Below are positions 22,821 through 32,851 of a stretch of 33,645 bases of DNA, piece by piece. A model generated the notes under the pieces. That model had not been told where the DNA came from. It saw only the letters and a program-made list of their open reading frames with translations, and made no database searches. How positions within the stretch are numbered: the stretch's first letter is position 1; every line of letters starts with the position of its first letter. The stretch is from a virus, in the IMG/VR virus record IMGVR_UViG_3300042860_000073, positions 1 to 33,645 of that record; one strand, given 5' to 3'. A program made the translations under genes and the position numbers.

Positions 22821-22850
22821 AAAAAAAAGAGGGAACAAGTCCCTCTAAAG
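22820..22850 (-). terminator. Strong intrinsic terminator ending the early minus-strand operon
   Basis: On the minus strand AGAGGGA, a five-base loop CTTGT and TCCCTCT form a perfect 7-bp stem followed directly by a run of about nine T. It lies 33 bases after the stop of the HNH-like gene and before the late genes. It is the clearest terminator in the window. Confidence 0.9.
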
Positions 22851-22882: not shown

Positions 22883-23140
22883 CTATCTAAAAAGTTTTGC
22901 AAGCGTTAGATTTAGAACACTCATCTCGTCTAACTTCATCACAGACCATATCCTAGCTGACCCATGTATGCCATTATGTGGCCCTTGATGGCAATCCTTG
23001 CATAAAGGAATACATAAGTATTGGTTATGCTGAACAATATGGTGTGCATCGCTTGGGGGAGAAGCATCACAGACCCCACAAGGCATTTCTTTAATCTTTG
23101 CCAAGTGGAGTCTTTCCTTGTTATTGGGTCTGTTGTTCAT
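22883..23140 (-). CDS. HNH-like / Ref-type small nuclease (85 aa)
   Basis: CGVCDASPPSDAHHIVQHNQ contains a CxxC pair followed by HH, and then CIPLCKDCHQGPHNGIHG supplies the second CxxC and the final H residues. This is a zinc-stabilised HNH fold of the type in the P1 Ref (RecA-dependent nuclease) family and its phage relatives. The C-terminus (WSVMKLDEMSVLNLTLAKLF) is common in that group. It is the last gene of the minus-strand early operon before the terminator, overlapping the previous stop (ATGA). Confidence 0.75.
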   Translation of the reverse strand: MNNRPNNKERLHLAKIKEMPCGVCDASPPSDAHHIVQHNQYLCIPLCKDCHQGPHNGIHGSARIWSVMKLDEMSVLNLTLAKLFR

Positions 23141-24216: not shown

Positions 24217-24465
24217 TCAACCTTCGTAAGCAGCTATTTTGGCTTCGTCTGCTTCTGCAAGTAAATGGCTAGACAGGCGCATAGTCCCTTCCATCTCTAA
24301 TTCTTTATATTGCTGGTCAGTAAAGATGCCCATCACCGAGATGTTTTGGTAAATCACATCCTCAATGTTCTCGTTATAAGTACCTTCTTCGTCCCGCTCG
24401 TATTCCATCACGACAGTAACGATGACAGAGCCTTCACCAGTTGTTGTGTCAAATTCGTATTTCAT
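24217..24465 (-). CDS. First gene of a mid-early operon, unknown (82 aa)
   Basis: Shine-Dalgarno TTAAGGAC precedes the ATG ending at 24465. The acidic protein MKYEFDTTTGEGSVIVTVVM then ERDEEGTYNENIEDVIYQ is beta-rich, with helical segments at the C-terminus. It is the first gene after promoter module B (24500-24548). Function unknown. Confidence 0.75.
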   Translation of the reverse strand: MKYEFDTTTGEGSVIVTVVMEYERDEEGTYNENIEDVIYQNISVMGIFTDQQYKELEMEGTMRLSSHLLAEADEAKIAAYEG

Positions 24466-24499
24466 TTTGTAGTCCTTAAAAGTACCCTTGCGAATTGCT

Positions 24500-24548
24500 T
24501 GGGCTGATGTAAGTATAGCAAACTAAACACAATATCTACTAGGTGTTT
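24500..24548 (-). promoter_or_regulatory. Promoter module B, copy of the early divergent promoter
   Basis: On the minus strand this holds AAACACCTAG (24539-24548), nine bases, TGTTTAGTTTGCTATACT (24512-24529), five bases, and CAGCCCA (24500-24506). The same three elements, in the same order, stand at 27953-28011 on the plus strand. The -10 is TATACT with TGC just upstream (extended -10), and no good -35 is present. It should drive the operon 24465 to 22883. Confidence 0.75.
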
Positions 24549-24552
24549 ATAC

Positions 24553-24885
24553 CTACTCTGTAGTTTTTACGCCAAGTCTTTCACTTGCTTGCTCAGAACG
24601 CCATATATCTGCCTTCATCTGGGCAGCCACCAGCATCCATTTGAGGGTTTCTTCCTTCTCAATTGCCACCATTAGCCCTCGGAGTAAGTCTGCATACTCA
24701 ACATGGGCGTAGGCTTCTCTCTCTTGAGATACAGCAGAATCAAACCCCATCTCTAAGGCTTGTTTCATCAGTAAAGCCTTTTTGGTCTTTCTAAATTCTT
24801 CGAGGTATATCCTCTGTGCTTTAGCCTCGGCAAACTTAACCGAGTTTTCTATGATGAACTCAATTGCTTTGTAAGGTGCTTTCAT
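24553..24885 (-). CDS. Conserved helical phage protein next to RusA (110 aa)
   Basis: This almost all-helical protein begins MKAPYKAIEFIIENSVKFAE, with YADLLRGLMVAIEKEETLKW and MLVAAQMKADIWRSEQASER toward the end. I recognise this pattern from proteins that sit beside RusA genes in phage replication regions. A possible role in recombination or replication is inferred from neighbourhood. Shine-Dalgarno AAGGGAAG precedes the start, which overlaps the RusA gene by 26 bases. Confidence 0.75.
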   Translation of the reverse strand: MKAPYKAIEFIIENSVKFAEAKAQRIYLEEFRKTKKALLMKQALEMGFDSAVSQEREAYAHVEYADLLRGLMVAIEKEETLKWMLVAAQMKADIWRSEQASERLGVKTTE

Positions 24886-25512: not shown

Positions 25513-25606
25513 CAGTTAACTCCAATGCTTTGTTTATCAGGTGTAGTGGTGTGGGTACGCCTTCACGCACCTTGTCAAGTAGTTTCATGGCTTCATAGTG
25601 GCTCAC
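25487..25606 (-). CDS. Tiny phage protein with LINKALELTGDL motif (39 aa)
   Basis: The GTG start (25604-25606) directly follows the stop of the overprinted frame, with GGAGA eight bases upstream. The product is MSHYEAMKLLDKVREGVPTP followed by LHLINKALELTGDLLTQDD. The same short helix motif recurs in small phage proteins that stand by replication genes. It could be a subunit-interaction peptide. Function unknown. Confidence 0.65.
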   Translation of the reverse strand: MSHYEAMKLLDKVREGVPTPLHLINKALELTGDLLTQDD

Positions 25607-26351
25607 TTAGGATTCTCCACGCTGTTGCTGCCACTTCTGGAACTTGTGCATTACCACAGGCCTTAACTCTGTCCAATCTTGAGGAAAGCCCATCATCCAT
25701 TCCGTGAAACTCGCTGGCAAATGTTTTCCAGTCATCAGTCGATAAGCACTTGTTAGCTTCGCTCCAAACTCCGTGCCAGTTTTGTGACTTGTTCTCACAA
25801 ATCTTTTGCCTGTGTAAGCTATTCCGTTTGTTTGACCTGTCATGTAATCTGTAGCTACGGGAGTGGGCCACCAACCAAAATCGTTCCCTTCTATGGGGTG
25901 CGCCAACATAGTCTGCTCCCACAATACCCCATCTCGCATCAAACCCCAGTTTGGAAAGGTCTGCAAGGACTCTGTCGAGTCCGTTATTAACGAGCATTGG
26001 GGAGTTCTCCACAAAGACAAATCTCGGTCTAACCTCGCCAATAATCCTCCCCATCTCTTTCCATAATCCACTTCGCTTTCCGTCAAGACCAGCCCCCCCC
26101 CCTGCTGCGGACAAATCTTGGCAGGGAAAGCCGCCAGATACAACGTCAACAATTCCTCTCCACGGCTTTCCGTCAAAGGTTTGCACGTCATCCCAAACTG
26201 GGAAAGGCGGGAGAAGTCCGTCATTTTGTCGGGCGCACAATACGCTTGCTGGGTAGGCTTCCCATTCAACGGCACAGACTGTTCGCCATCCGAGAAGTTT
26301 TCCCCCAAGTATTCCTCCACCAGCGCCTGCGAAAAGAGCCAACTCATTCAT
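25593..26351 (-). CDS. C5 cytosine DNA methyltransferase (252 aa)
   Basis: All key C5 methyltransferase motifs are in order: motif I FAGAGGG (7-13), the acidic EW (29-30), motif IV GGFPCQDLS with nucleophile Cys77, motif VI ENSPML (115-120), motif VIII RRERFW (154-159), and motif X GNAQVP (234-239). At 252 residues it is the compact form common in phages. It modifies cytosine in phage or host DNA, presumably to evade restriction. The ATG ending at 26351 follows AAAGGCGGTGT and overlaps the DUF1376 stop. It carries a G10 tract encoding Gly84-86, and its entire length is overlapped by another open frame. The +1 frame is open from 26347 to 25607. Confidence 0.92.
   Translation of the reverse strand: MNELALFAGAGGGILGGKLLGWRTVCAVEWEAYPASVLCARQNDGLLPPFPVWDDVQTFDGKPWRGIVDVVSGGFPCQDLSAAGGGAGLDGKRSGLWKEMGRIIGEVRPRFVFVENSPMLVNNGLDRVLADLSKLGFDARWGIVGADYVGAPHRRERFWLVAHSRSYRLHDRSNKRNSLHRQKICENKSQNWHGVWSEANKCLSTDDWKTFASEFHGMDDGLSSRLDRVKACGNAQVPEVAATAWRILSEPL
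25607..26347 (-). CDS. Overprinted second protein inside the methyltransferase gene (246 aa)
   Basis: This is the +1 frame of the methyltransferase gene, open for 246 codons. From about residue 42 (ATG ending at 26224) it resembles a recurrent phage protein with MTCKPLTESRGEELLTLYLA, FPAKICPQQ, SEVDYGKRWGG, WRTPQCSL, FPNWGLMRDGVLWEQ, WWPTPV, EWMMGFPQDWTEL and a KWQQQ end. I recall such proteins from phages with the same methylase type. The pieces line up with the methylase motifs: its last block is co-encoded with motif X, and its FPAK block with motif IV. Translation could start at 26347 (four bases after the methylase start, sharing its Shine-Dalgarno) or at the internal ATG. Alternatively it is only a by-product of conserved codon use. 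Function unknown. Confidence 0.6.
   Translation of the reverse strand: MSWLFSQALVEEYLGENFSDGEQSVPLNGKPTQQAYCAPDKMTDFSRLSQFGMTCKPLTESRGEELLTLYLAAFPAKICPQQGGGLVLTESEVDYGKRWGGLLARLDRDLSLWRTPQCSLITDSTESLQTFPNWGLMRDGVLWEQTMLAHPIEGNDFGWWPTPVATDYMTGQTNGIAYTGKRFVRTSHKTGTEFGAKLTSAYRLMTGKHLPASFTEWMMGFPQDWTELRPVVMHKFQKWQQQRGES
26093..26102 (-). repeat. G10 homopolymer in methyltransferase gene
   Basis: Ten C on the plus strand read as GGG GGG GGG G in the methylase frame (Gly84-86, first base of Ala87) just after the catalytic PCQDLS motif. Loss of one G would switch translation downstream into the overprinted frame. It is the longest homopolymer that I found in the window. Confidence 0.9.
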
Positions 26352-27198: not shown

Positions 27199-27210
27199 CA
27201 TTGTATCAAA
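27199..27210 (-). promoter_or_regulatory. Possible extended -10 promoter for DUF1376 operon
   Basis: TTTGATACAATG on the minus strand is nearly the same as TTTGCTACAATG before the Cro-like gene (27917-27928). Both would be TGnTACAAT extended -10 elements without a good -35. It lies about 100 bases before the replication gene and just after the stop region of the winged-helix gene. Confidence 0.45.
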
Positions 27211-27574
27211 TAAATTGATTGTTGGTAATTTCGTTTGTTTGTTGTCTGCCAAGCAATCGTCTAGCCTGTGAGTTCATAACCGCATATTCAGCTTTACTGA
27301 AGATGCCTTGTGCGTTCCTAATGTCGAAAGGATTTAGCTTGTCGTAGGGTTCATCATTGGCGGCTTTGGTAGATTCAATCATGTGTGGCTCTAAGGTGTA
27401 CTTACAAATCCATGACCTACCCATCTTAACTTTTTCAACTGTAATCTTTTTCTTGCGGTGCAAATGCTTGCAAGCAGCAACGATATGCAGTCTAGGTATG
27501 CCTGTCAGGTTCTCTATCTGATAAGACGTTAGAGAGCCATTCTGGAGGCTTCTGATGATAGCTTCTTGGGTCAT
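27206..27574 (-). CDS. Winged-helix DNA-binding protein (122 aa)
   Basis: The N-terminal 60 residues form a helix-turn-helix pattern with wing: LTSYQIENLTGIPRLHIVAA then KHLHRKKKITVEKVKMGRSW. The C-terminal half is polar and ends QTNEITNNQFI. The start overlaps the previous stop (ATGA). It lies between the Cro-like repressor and the replication protein, so a regulator or replication accessory role is likely. No close family could be named. Confidence 0.7.
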   Translation of the reverse strand: MTQEAIIRSLQNGSLTSYQIENLTGIPRLHIVAACKHLHRKKKITVEKVKMGRSWICKYTLEPHMIESTKAANDEPYDKLNPFDIRNAQGIFSKAEYAVMNSQARRLLGRQQTNEITNNQFI

Positions 27575-27762
27575 AGAATCATTAAAGTGTGGAGTGTTTC
27601 TCTGTCTTTGTGGGTCATCTCAAAATAAATCTTAGAGGCTTTATCCTTGTGAACGTGATAGCACAATAGATGATAAATTGAGCCTTCAAAGCTACTATGC
27701 TCAACAGCAAAGCCAAGGTGTAGCAACATCACAGACTTTTGATTGAGGTACTTGTAAATCAT
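27571..27762 (-). CDS. Small early protein downstream of Cro-like gene (63 aa)
   Basis: The start is chosen at the ATG ending at 27762, which overlaps the Cro-like stop as ATGA; an upstream in-frame ATG lies deep inside the Cro-like gene. The protein MIYKYLNQKSVMLLHLGFAV then HSSFEGSIYHLLCYHVHKDK is His-rich and hydrophobic at its N-terminus. Function unknown. Confidence 0.65.
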   Translation of the reverse strand: MIYKYLNQKSVMLLHLGFAVEHSSFEGSIYHLLCYHVHKDKASKIYFEMTHKDRETLHTLMIL

Positions 27763-27911
27763 TTGAACCACTCTGGTCTGAGTTCTTTTAGTTGATAAAT
27801 GCGTAACCGAGGAATCTTCTTCCATTGGTGAACAGCAGCCCTTGTAAGACCTAATATTTTAGCAAGCCCACTCTGTGAGCCAGCAAGTGTGATAGCAGTT
27901 TGTTTATCCAT
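27759..27911 (-). CDS. Cro-like (P22 Cro / YdaS type) repressor (50 aa)
   Basis: The 50-residue protein MDKQTAITLAGSQSGLAKIL then GLTRAAVHQWKKIPRLRIYQ has the helix-turn-helix of the P22 Cro group: SGLAKILGLTRAAVHQW, with the conserved VxxW followed by a basic IPxxR segment. It ends LKELRPEWFK. The ATG ending at 27911 has little Shine-Dalgarno. It is the first gene leftward from the divergent promoters and very likely represses them. Confidence 0.9.
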   Translation of the reverse strand: MDKQTAITLAGSQSGLAKILGLTRAAVHQWKKIPRLRIYQLKELRPEWFK

Positions 27912-27916
27912 CTAAA

Positions 27917-27928
27917 CATTGTAGCAAA
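27917..27928 (-). promoter_or_regulatory. Promoter of the Cro-like operon
   Basis: TTTGCTACAATG on the minus strand is an extended -10 (TGC before TACAAT) only six bases before the Cro-like ATG, so the mRNA would be nearly leaderless. This agrees with the poor Shine-Dalgarno. The -10 lies inside the inverted repeat at 27918-27932. Confidence 0.55.
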
Positions 27929-27941: not shown

Positions 27942-27952
27942 GTTTTTAGGGA

Positions 27953-28011
27953 AAACACCTAGATAAATAGCTTGTTTAGCCTGTTTAGTTTGCTATACTG
28001 CACTCAGCCCA
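27953..28011 (+). promoter_or_regulatory. Promoter module A for the plus-strand early operon
   Basis: AAACACCTAG (27953-27962), 19 bases, TGTTTAGTTTGCTATACT (27982-27999), five bases, CAGCCCA (28005-28011). The core promoter has TTGTTT (27972-27977), a 16-base spacer and TATACT with TGC upstream. It repeats the module at 24500-24548, with ten more bases between the first two elements. The AAACACCTAG box is about 30 bases from both divergent -10 elements. Confidence 0.75.
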
Positions 28012-28046
28012 TAACACTTTGTAAGTGGGTAATTAAGGAAATCAAA

Positions 28047-28187
28047 ATGAAACTTTACGGAATTAATTTTTTCTGCAATTACAAGCATCACGCTGAAGCA
28101 ATCTGGTCTGTTGGACGTTACGAACTTGAGAAGCAAATTGTTGCTCAATATCCTAATGCTACTGGCATCCACATTTGGCTTATTTAA
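28047..28187 (+). CDS. First early protein (46 aa), unknown
   Basis: ATG at 28047 after TTAAGGAAATCAAA. The product MKLYGINFFCNYKHHAEAIW then SVGRYELEKQIVAQYPNATG ends IHIWLI. It is short, with aromatic residues at both ends. It is the first gene behind promoter A, where host takeover proteins are common. Function unknown. Confidence 0.7.
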   Translation: MKLYGINFFCNYKHHAEAIWSVGRYELEKQIVAQYPNATGIHIWLI

Positions 28188-28197
28188 GGAGAACCAA

Positions 28198-28290
28198 ATG
28201 AAAAGTAAGATTATTCAGACGCTAGTTGAATGTGTGTTAGCCATCGTTATCTTTGGCGGTATCGGTGTACTACTGGCGTATAGGGGGTAA
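28198..28290 (+). CDS. Single-pass membrane peptide (30 aa)
   Basis: AAGGAGAACCAA gives a near-perfect Shine-Dalgarno before ATG at 28198. The peptide MKSKIIQTLVECVLAIVIFG then GIGVLLAYRG has one membrane segment (residues 8-27) with basic residues at both ends. An early membrane peptide could alter host envelope or superinfection, but there is no direct evidence. Confidence 0.7.
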   Translation: MKSKIIQTLVECVLAIVIFGGIGVLLAYRG

Positions 28291-28292
28291 GA

Positions 28293-28622: not shown

Positions 28623-29225
28623 ATGGTACACAAGAAGTTAATGGCAGCAAGAATGAGTTTGCAAGAAGCATCACTCAAGAAGTCTGGTCACAATAAATTT
28701 GCTGGCTACAGCTACTTTGAACTTGGTGACTTTATCCCCACGATTACCGAGATTTTTTATAACATCGGTTTGTGTGGCGTAGTGTCCTACGATACAGAGA
28801 TAGCAAGCCTGACCATCACAGACACAGACGATGGCACTAACATCATCATCACATCACCAATGGCAGATGCTAACCTTAAAGGTTGCCATCCCATTCAGAA
28901 CCTTGGCGCAGTCGAGACATACACAAGACGCTACCTATGGGTTACAGCAATGGAGATTGTTGAGCATGACGCTCTGGATTCCTCTGCGCCTATCAAGGAA
29001 GCCGTAATTATTACGCCATCACAAGGCATCCGAGATGAGTTACCTATTGAAATATTAAAGTATCTTGACGAGTTAGCAGTCGAATTGATTGCTACTTGTG
29101 AGAAAGACCCCAAGGCAGCTTGGGTAAGGTTGGAACAAGAAAACCTAGAGGCTGACCAAAAGGTAGCTTTGTGGGGCTTGATGCCAAGTAACGTAAGAAG
29201 CGCAATTAAGAAAGCGAAAGGTTAA
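28623..29225 (+). CDS. erf: ERF-family single-strand annealing protein (200 aa)
   Basis: KFAGYSYFELGDFIPTI (residues 25-41) and the later LGAVETYTRRYLW (94-106) are the ERF superfamily signatures. The C-terminal part (from about 120) is helical and variable. It anneals complementary single strands in phage recombination and probably in concatemer formation. It lies two bases from the SSB-like gene, in the plus-strand early operon. Confidence 0.92.
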   Translation: MVHKKLMAARMSLQEASLKKSGHNKFAGYSYFELGDFIPTITEIFYNIGLCGVVSYDTEIASLTITDTDDGTNIIITSPMADANLKGCHPIQNLGAVETYTRRYLWVTAMEIVEHDALDSSAPIKEAVIITPSQGIRDELPIEILKYLDELAVELIATCEKDPKAAWVRLEQENLEADQKVALWGLMPSNVRSAIKKAKG

Positions 29226-29227
29226 TC

Positions 29228-29473
29228 ATGGAATACAATAATGAAAACAGAGGCGCATTATTTAAGAATGAACGCAGAGATGATGAGAAGTTTCCTCACT
29301 ACAAAGGCTCACTCAATGTAGAGGGTGTAGATTTTTGGATTAGCGCATGGTTAAAAGAAAGCAAAGATGGGGCTAAGTTCATGTCCTTGTCTATAAAAGC
29401 TAAAGACCAAAAAGAAGCTAAGTCGCCTACAAAGCGTTCTCCAAAAGATTTTGATGAAGACGCACCTTTTTGA
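29228..29473 (+). CDS. Putative ssDNA-binding-like protein with acidic SSB-type tip (81 aa)
   Basis: MEYNNENRGALFKNERRDDE then HYKGSLNVEGVDFWISAWLK looks like a short beta-barrel core, and the Lys-rich linker ends in DFDEDAPF, like the acidic tip of SSB that recruits repair proteins. It is shorter than true SSB and may be half of an OB fold or a DUF736-like protein. Its place after ERF supports a ssDNA role. Moderate certainty. Confidence 0.65.
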   Translation: MEYNNENRGALFKNERRDDEKFPHYKGSLNVEGVDFWISAWLKESKDGAKFMSLSIKAKDQKEAKSPTKRSPKDFDEDAPF

Positions 29474-29525
29474 TTACGATGGGAAAGTTGTGCAAAGAGT
29501 CTTTCGGCTTGCAGACGAGCAATGA
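29454..29525 (+). CDS. Possible tiny coupled protein (23 aa)
   Basis: ATG at 29454 lies inside the SSB-like gene in the +1 frame and yields MKTHLFDYDGKVVQRVFRLA then DEQ, ending in an ATGA overlap with the next start. The frame fills the gap between the two genes and keeps coupling of translation. No Shine-Dalgarno is visible, so it may only be a relay reading frame. Confidence 0.4.
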   Translation: MKTHLFDYDGKVVQRVFRLADEQ

Positions 29526-29896
29526 GTACCATCACCACTATGAGAAATCAGTATGCAACCCATACTGACTTCCGTGATTTCCAAGGTTTGATTCCCGAAA
29601 ATACGCATTTCTTGCCTAGCAACATAGACATGATTTGCGAGAGAAAGGGACACTTCCTAATCGGAGAATGGAAGAAACCTAACGAGAACATGGCTACTGG
29701 TCAGCAATTGCTACTTAAGGCTTTTGCTCAAGTGCCTAAATTTACTGTGTTAGTCATCATTGGTAACACAGACGGAGAAACAGAAGTTGGAGATGTGTTC
29801 CAAGTTGCTTTAGGTAAGTGCGTCAAGATAGGTAATGGTCTTCAATTTCTCAAAGACTTCTACGTTCTGTGGTACGAATTTGCAAACGCTACTTAG
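29522..29896 (+). CDS. Candidate PD-(D/E)XK-like nuclease (124 aa)
   Basis: The centre, NIDMICERKGHFLIGEWKKP, has Asp followed by E-W-K about 12 residues on, as in the D-x(n)-ExK core of restriction-fold nucleases. LKAFAQVPKFTVLVIIGNTD adds a helix and strand typical of that fold. It is the last gene of the early operon with ERF and the SSB-like protein, so a recombination exonuclease or VRR-like nuclease role fits. Homology was not verified. Its 3' end overlaps the convergent holin gene by eight bases. Confidence 0.55.
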   Translation: MSTITTMRNQYATHTDFRDFQGLIPENTHFLPSNIDMICERKGHFLIGEWKKPNENMATGQQLLLKAFAQVPKFTVLVIIGNTDGETEVGDVFQVALGKCVKIGNGLQFLKDFYVLWYEFANAT

Positions 29897-32387: not shown

Positions 32388-32526
32388 TTTCAGCTTCTTT
32401 AGGAACTTGCGCTATTGCTTGTTCTTCTATTTTTTTCCAAAGCACATATGCGTTGGAACTTGTTGGTAATTGACCAAGCACATTCATAATGAATTGCACT
32501 TCGTTAACGTCTAACTCTAATTTCAT
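32380..32526 (-). CDS. Small helical phage protein (48 aa)
   Basis: MKLELDVNEVQFIMNVLGQL then PTSSNAYVLWKKIEEQAIAQ is a two-helix protein that occurs downstream of fibre genes in many phages. The ATG ending at 32526 overlaps the 106-residue gene's stop (ATGA). Function unknown. Confidence 0.75.
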   Translation of the reverse strand: MKLELDVNEVQFIMNVLGQLPTSSNAYVLWKKIEEQAIAQVPKEAENG

Positions 32527-32843
32527 GCTTGACCCCAAGGCAATGCAGTATTTGCAGGGCTAACAGGAGGTGTAATCATTGAGTCAATCTGACCTTGAAC
32601 ACACGCTTGTGCGCTTGCAATAGCAGACTCAGGAATCCAACCAATGACGATTGCTTCTGTTAAGTCAGCATAAGGAGTTATTGCACCCTCTTGGTCAGCA
32701 GAATTAAATTGTGTATTGCCACCGATAGAGGCAGTATGTGTGCCGTCTACGCCAGTGACCTGCCATAAACAATTCACAACATAGTCGGGTGATGGTTGCT
32801 GGATTGTGTACATCGCTGTAATGCGGGTTGTAAAAGTGGTCAT
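32523..32843 (-). CDS. Fibre-downstream protein, intact paralogue of 1-171 (106 aa)
   Basis: Shine-Dalgarno AAGGACTAAC precedes the ATG ending at 32843. MTTFTTRITAMYTIQQPSPD then QVTGVDGTHTASIGGNTQFN is followed by TPYADLTEAIVIGWI and a Pro-rich end. The family is common after phage fibres. Its N-terminal half is nearly the same as the truncated protein at 1-171, so the fibre-downstream module exists twice. It lies eight bases from the S74 fibre stop. Confidence 0.85.
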   Translation of the reverse strand: MTTFTTRITAMYTIQQPSPDYVVNCLWQVTGVDGTHTASIGGNTQFNSADQEGAITPYADLTEAIVIGWIPESAIASAQACVQGQIDSMITPPVSPANTALPWGQA

Positions 32844-32851
32844 GTTAGTCC

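Follow-up and report, generated by a model that had tools for sequence, protein, structure and literature searches.

Paired candidate early-promoter cassettes with a helically phased operator and a 5' leader hairpin in uncultured aquatic phages

In phage lambda, Cro turns down the early promoters and its own promoter, and the cI mRNA made from PRM is leaderless. Among activator sites, class II activation fits a centre at -42, and -52 is not favoured for well-studied activators such as CRP. In T4-type phages, promoter early stem-loop (PeSL) cassettes were reportedly described by Arbiol in 2010 and by Comeau in 2014. According to one account, these cassettes of T4-type phages occur in many copies and in regions of intense gene shuffling (PMC4503421). 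Stems in 5' untranslated regions are known to protect mRNAs (PMC7509114).

Here we report an oppositely facing pair of one control cassette that is common to a large group of aquatic phages known only from uncultured sequence. The pair lies in a 33.6-kb virus record (33,645 nucleotides, all of which we analysed, hereafter the window), whose terminase is nearest to those of an uncultured phage and Methylophilales phage Venkman (~61% identity), followed by those of HTVC010P-type Pelagibacter phages. An earlier note on this DNA had proposed that three elements recur in the same order at 27953-28011 (plus strand) and 24500-24548 (minus strand), and we found both copies as described: a AAACACCTAG box, the 18-mer TGTTTAGTTTGCTATACT and CAGCCCA, with 19 bases (ATAAATAGCTTGTTTAGCC) between box and 18-mer in the plus copy and nine (TAGATATTG) in the minus copy. 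The 18-mer is, as that note had it, the same letter for letter in both; the gap from the 18-mer to CAGCCCA, also said to be identical, is five bases long in both copies but differs in sequence (GCACT and TACAT). At up to three mismatches the window has no third site for the 18-mer, and none of 100 shuffled windows contained two matches to it. The AAACACCTAG box by itself is a weak word (42 matches at two or fewer mismatches against 39 expected) and owes its significance to being part of a palindrome and conserved in relatives. The pairing of these modules is genuine and well beyond what chance would give.

Related phages, to which the earlier note had looked for a check, carry the module in more than 100 IMG/VR stretches (at least 119 contain the 18-mer) and in all 20 near-complete relatives. 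Among the IMG/VR matches listed, about 20 loci have the 18-mer once per strand, with identical copies. A search of 257 Gb of bacterial and archaeal genome sequence gave three occurrences of the 18-mer, which is chance level, and a host or prophage source was rejected on these matches. Annotated phages gave no credible match to either module, Venkman is without such a leader, and a literature search for comparable conserved phage promoter-leaders returned no report combining all the features described here. In about 140 aligned copies the order is fixed: palindrome, TGTTTAGTTTGCTATACT, five bases, CAGCCC, hairpin, TAAGGA and ATG. A covariance model of the leader matched the window exactly twice (28006-28038 plus, 24474-24505 minus) and found two matches on opposite strands in every one of 20 near-complete relatives; a third match, in a single relative, is apparently a terminal-repeat copy. 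When loci were chosen by gene rather than by promoter, the leader was present in 78 of 79 anchored on the Cro-like gene and in 74 of 75 anchored on MKYEF, the first gene of the minus operon. The exact 18-mer was found in 43 of 57 unique minus-type and 28 of 61 unique plus-type promoters of these gene-anchored sets, the varied cores including conventional TACAAT promoters. Thus, the leader and operator persist while the promoter core varies.

The 18-mer (27982-27999, plus strand; 24512-24529, minus strand) ends in a predicted extended -10 element, TGC-TATACT (TGCTATACT), and the modules look like promoters, as the earlier note proposed. The plus core begins with TGTTTA, a possible half of a second operator (O2). 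No -35 element lies upstream of the minus core. In the plus copy, a -35-like hexamer TTGTTT (27972-27977, plus strand; 16-bp spacer) sits inside a near-repeat of 10 bp (TTGTTTAGCC followed by CTGTTTAGTT) that accounts for the additional turn as well as for the hexamer; relatives have TTGACC at this place. A simple promoter scan of the window listed neither promoter because it demands a -35 match. Since the A of CAGCCC lies seven bases past the -10 element, and 59 of 61 unique promoters of the plus type have CA at -1/+1, we infer that transcription starts at this A (A28006 on the plus strand, 24505 on the minus strand). CAGCCCA, which the earlier note took for a third box, is better read as the putative start and the first arm of an RNA hairpin.

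We found that the AAACACCTAG box is the right half of a palindrome, TAGG-N7/8-CCTA, which we call operator O1. O1 of the plus promoter (TAGG-GAAAACA-CCTA, 27947-27961, no strand assigned) is centred at -52 relative to the predicted plus start and at -43 relative to that of the Cro-like gene; O1 of the minus promoter (TAGG-TATAAACA-CCTA, 24540-24555, likewise without strand) is centred at -42.5. In 198 unique modules O1 was centred at -42 to -45 in 91, at -52 to -54 in 94 and at -63 in one; 12 had no clear O1, and in none did it fall between the spacing classes. A circular phase test at 10.5 bp, run on 16 spacer-context clusters to limit shared descent, gave R 0.86 with p at the simulation floor of 5e-5, and grouping into 20 or 11 clusters led to the same phase result. 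Near-related promoters can stand one step apart (L139 at -53 versus L133 at -42), and both the plus and the minus promoter show both spacing classes among relatives. These whole-turn classes uphold the earlier argument that a ten-base difference in spacer keeps the same DNA face. The accompanying suggestion, that a protein on the box meets RNA polymerase, fits the phasing. Such phasing is expected if a protein at O1 contacts either RNA polymerase or a further protein bound to that face, and cooperative binding to O1 and a second site in the core would produce it as well. We regard a regulator in contact with RNA polymerase as the best explanation, the probable regulator being the Cro-like protein; it counts against this reading that -52, unlike -42, is not a position favoured by well-studied activators such as CRP.

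The two main spacing classes differ in their promoters. A -35 element beginning with TTG was present in 1% of the unique modules of the -42 class and in 78% of those of the -52 class, and TGn precedes the -10 hexamer in 87% of the -42 class, where the TTG -35 is nearly absent. This difference weighs against the reading that O1 is instead a repressor site, at which the Cro-like protein would lower the early promoters and its own, perhaps cooperatively with a dimer bound at O2 in the promoter spacer; phasing would then perhaps serve the contact between two dimers, and cooperative repressor pairs also need helical phase. The candidate binder does belong to the P22_Cro family, and O2-like palindromes (NNAACA-N3-TGTTNN, for example TAAACATCTTGTTTA and TCAACAAAGTGTTGA) lie at -26 to -28 in many modules and are perfect in some genomes, so that this weaker core palindrome may, tentatively, bind a repressor. 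However, many plus promoters have only half of O2, and the -35 element is missing in the -42 class although positions -33 to -29 lie outside O1, whereas it is present in the -52 class. A pure repressor site does not predict this contrast, which makes repression the more doubtful reading and leads us to favour activation.

The favoured candidate for the O1-binding regulator is the Cro-like protein encoded divergently from the plus module (27759-27911, minus strand), which matched P22_Cro at 39.1 bits (cut-off 30.2). In the window this gene has a predicted extended -10 element, TGC-TACAAT (TGCTACAAT, 27918-27926, minus strand), six bp upstream of the ATG. Among 69 unique relatives the -10 element lies six bp from the ATG in 64 and five bp in 5, so the cro mRNA is predicted to be leaderless. 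O1 is centred at -42 to -44 of the cro promoter in 60 of 69 unique cases, at -54 in 6 and at -73/-74 in 3, which would again be roughly whole turns. Longer intergenic regions, such as that of L201, have another O1-like palindrome close to the cro promoter. In L071, L094 and L105 the exact 18-mer is the Cro-like gene's own promoter, six bases from the ATG.

The promoter adjacent to the Cro-like gene contained O1 in 67 of 67 cases with this Cro and in 0 of 6 with another Cro, a contrast that is weak evidence because this promoter is linked to the cro gene. The far promoter keeps O1 in five of the six genomes with the other Cro; Cro type therefore mostly failed to predict O1 there, and the Cro-like protein is unproven as the binder. 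The retained far operators would suit a host factor or a different phage protein at O1, as would a winged-helix-like gene that lies nearby in nearly all genomes (27206-27574, minus strand, in the window; judged by eye, with no family match to its product). Nevertheless, three relatives without the winged-helix-like gene keep O1, and we rejected its product as a necessary binder. It also speaks against a binder other than the Cro-like protein that promoters adjoining the other Cro lack O1 and that, among loci whose Cro is known, O1 has clearly gone from the far promoter only in L226 and L235, which are related and both have the other Cro; L235 is a locus additional to the six counted above. We consider a different binder possible but not the likelier case, and the comparison of loci weakly favours the Cro-like protein.

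A second Cro-like family (MNTLTDKELIxLLGGPTxLSKKLGF...) is present in L206, L226, L230, L235, L248, L026 and L060. At those of these loci for which the upstream region is available, the palindrome TTTCAACACTTTGTGAAA or a variant replaces O1, at about -49.5 in the plus promoter.

Each of the two operon mRNAs is predicted to begin with a 5'-terminal hairpin, AGCCCAUAACACUUUGUAAGUGGGU in the plus copy (28006-28030, plus strand) and AGCCCAAGCAAUUCGCAAGGGU in the minus copy (24484-24505, minus strand). The Shine-Dalgarno sequence TAAGGA follows at 28034-28039 (plus strand), outside the leader hairpin, and at 24473-24478 (minus strand), and all leader types gave the same folded shape. A MAFFT alignment of short and long leaders, which placed the CCC arm in the wrong columns, was discarded; the covariance model was built from the long forms and then used to align all leaders. 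In this alignment, which leans towards the structure because it was fitted to the model, 97.1% of cells were paired compared with 92.9% in shuffles (39 distinct sequences), and four pairs had changed on both sides, in 23 cells. None of 500 shuffles was as high in cells or in score, and the covariation also exceeded that of all slid versions. In the unaligned leader sequences, exchanges of A-U for G-C and of C-G for A-U in the inner stem can be seen directly, and a conserved G-U pair favours an RNA structure rather than a DNA operator. The covariation count on long forms alone was uninformative, and we found no unusual folding stability (z about -0.5 for composition); because stability is ordinary, the case for the hairpin rests on covariation and conserved position. 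A terminator scan of the window listed neither leader hairpin; each is followed by TACTTTTAAGGA or a similar stretch and then the gene, with no terminator T run.

The hairpin probably protects the 5' ends of the two operon mRNAs and would thereby stabilise them. It seems unlikely to be an antitermination or translational control signal comparable to lambda boxB or HK022 put RNA. Its placement at the start of two early operons does recall nutL/nutR and putL/putR, and the inner stem is conserved and the loop short, but a boxA-like element cannot precede a hairpin that lies at the inferred 5' end, the loop and outer stem vary, and the leader had no Rfam match at the gathering score. A further point against such a signal is that TAAGGA is unpaired in the folded short leaders.

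The earlier note had placed the modules at the head of a plus-strand recombination operon and of a minus-strand operon ending at an HNH-like gene, and the gene order bears this out. Behind the plus module follow a swappable first gene (MKLYGINFF..., 46 aa, 28047-28187, plus strand), which in relatives also occurs at the minus position, and genes for an Erf-like single-stranded DNA annealing protein (28623-29225, plus strand) and a single-strand DNA binding protein (SSB; 29228-29473, plus strand). The minus operon begins with MKYEF... (82 aa, 24217-24465, minus strand), which has no assigned function, and ends with the HNH-like gene (22883-23140) and a terminator-like hairpin with a T run (22828-22846, minus strand). 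Two further products are a predicted 30-aa membrane peptide (MKSKIIQTLVE..., 28200-28292), whose gene in relatives stands first behind the plus module more often than any other, and the product of 29522-29896, after SSB, which has an E-x-K motif (FLIGEWKKPN) and no family match and is possibly a nuclease of the PD-(D/E)XK type.

First genes behind the module belong to 24 families, nine of which occur at both the plus and the minus position, although the counts per family are not frequencies because sampling was partly anchored on one minus-operon gene. The module would therefore also act as a swapping joint. At loci with an additional gene ahead of MKYEF, another hairpin (AGGGGACTTAGTTCCCC or variants) is followed by the same CTTTTAAGGA, a pattern suggesting that the joints lie at the hairpin and the ribosome-binding site. 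In L204, L206, L214, L240, L267, L269 and L275, which have an extra gene inserted, intercistronic hairpins (AGGGGACTTAGTTCCCC, AGGGGGCATAGTCCCCC and variants) stand just before the MKYEF Shine-Dalgarno sequence, and these hairpins show apparent compensatory changes. That the modules resemble each other through recent duplication without shared regulation is very improbable: the 18-mer is identical between copies in about 20 loci, but spacer, leader type and flanks differ, while O1, the extended -10 element and the hairpin are conserved across many relatives and the two promoters each show both spacing classes.

Elsewhere in the window, two long open reading frames overlap in different frames of the minus strand (25593-26351 and 25607-26347) in a cytosine methyltransferase region, and the second contains a methyltransferase-like stretch, SFTEWMMGFPQDWTEL; the methyltransferase gene may be two overlapping genes or frameshifted. 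Near both its ends the record has identical stretches at a constant offset of 32672 (41-63 with 32713-32735, and 155-172 with 32827-32844), a diverged duplication around small genes at 174-422 and 32523-32843.

We put the probability at about 0.6 that the whole model holds, namely early-promoter cassettes with a regulator at O1 touching polymerase, a 5' hairpin and gene exchange. Each cassette would consist, in order, of O1, an extended -10 element for host sigma-70-type polymerase, the start site, the 5' hairpin, TAAGGA and the first ATG. The regulator on O1 would be a phage protein acting as a dimer, most likely the neighbouring Cro-like protein, bound at a fixed face of the helix. In the minus copy and at the cro promoter, where O1 is at -42/-43 and there is no -35 element, it would lie next to RNA polymerase in the manner of a class II activator. 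In the plus copy, where O1 is at -52, the TTGTTTAGCC/CTGTTTAGTT near-repeat would have added about one turn and a -35-like hexamer, so that this promoter may depend less on the regulator while keeping the phase. A single regulator could thus set the timing of cro, of the recombination operon and of the minus operon, three transcripts in all. The hairpin would shield both operon mRNAs at their 5' ends, and through the cassette that they have in common the operons could exchange small first genes by homologous recombination.

Helical-phase rules for regulators have usually been learned from few engineered promoters. Here, more than 100 natural variants show such rules at three promoters, which possibly belong to a single regulon. 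In addition, the cassette flags the places where these phages swap small early genes that have no assigned function, and can therefore serve as a tag to find them. A bolder reading, which we offer tentatively and at slightly less than even odds, is that of a natural promoter-evolution experiment, in which the operator shifts by whole turns, never leaving phase, between activator-dependent promoters lacking a -35 element and promoters that have one, with the cassettes at their two fixed places as a joint for exchange of small early cargo genes.

Parts of this arrangement resemble known systems. Like ompA-type 5' stabilising stem-loops, the leader is a short 5' untranslated stem-loop upstream of the Shine-Dalgarno sequence (PMC7509114), but here the same element stands on two operons of one phage and its function is putative. 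The minus promoter resembles extended -10 sigma-70 promoters under class II control: TGC directly precedes TATACT, no -35 element is present, in keeping with a dispensable -35, and the palindrome is centred at -42.5, so that, given the inferred start sites, a predicted activator site near -41.5 would replace the -35 element. In contrast, the site lies one or two turns away in related promoters here, most of which have gained a -35 element. As in the lambda early region (cro, pL, pR and PRM), a Cro-like gene, here of the P22_Cro family, is divergent from a recombination operon with an operator between them, an operator lies at about -42 of a promoter without a -35 element, and a regulator mRNA is leaderless (as predicted here). 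Unlike lambda, there is no CI-like gene between the divergent promoters, no integrase was noticed in the window, and one palindrome serves both divergent promoters, with a further copy serving a third, 3.4 kb away. With PeSL cassettes the module shares an early promoter joined to a stem-loop, a place beside variable small genes and a link to their shuffling, with different genes behind the cassette (24 families, nine at both positions). It differs in having exactly two copies per genome (20 of 20) rather than many, a stem-loop that forms the 5' leader and lacks a terminator T run rather than being terminator-like, and a phased operator, and in belonging to a phage of approximately 34 kb that is related to HTVC010P and Venkman and is not of T4 type. 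The PeSL cassette is the nearest known system, but because the module departs from it in copy number and in the kind of stem-loop, we do not class the module as PeSL.
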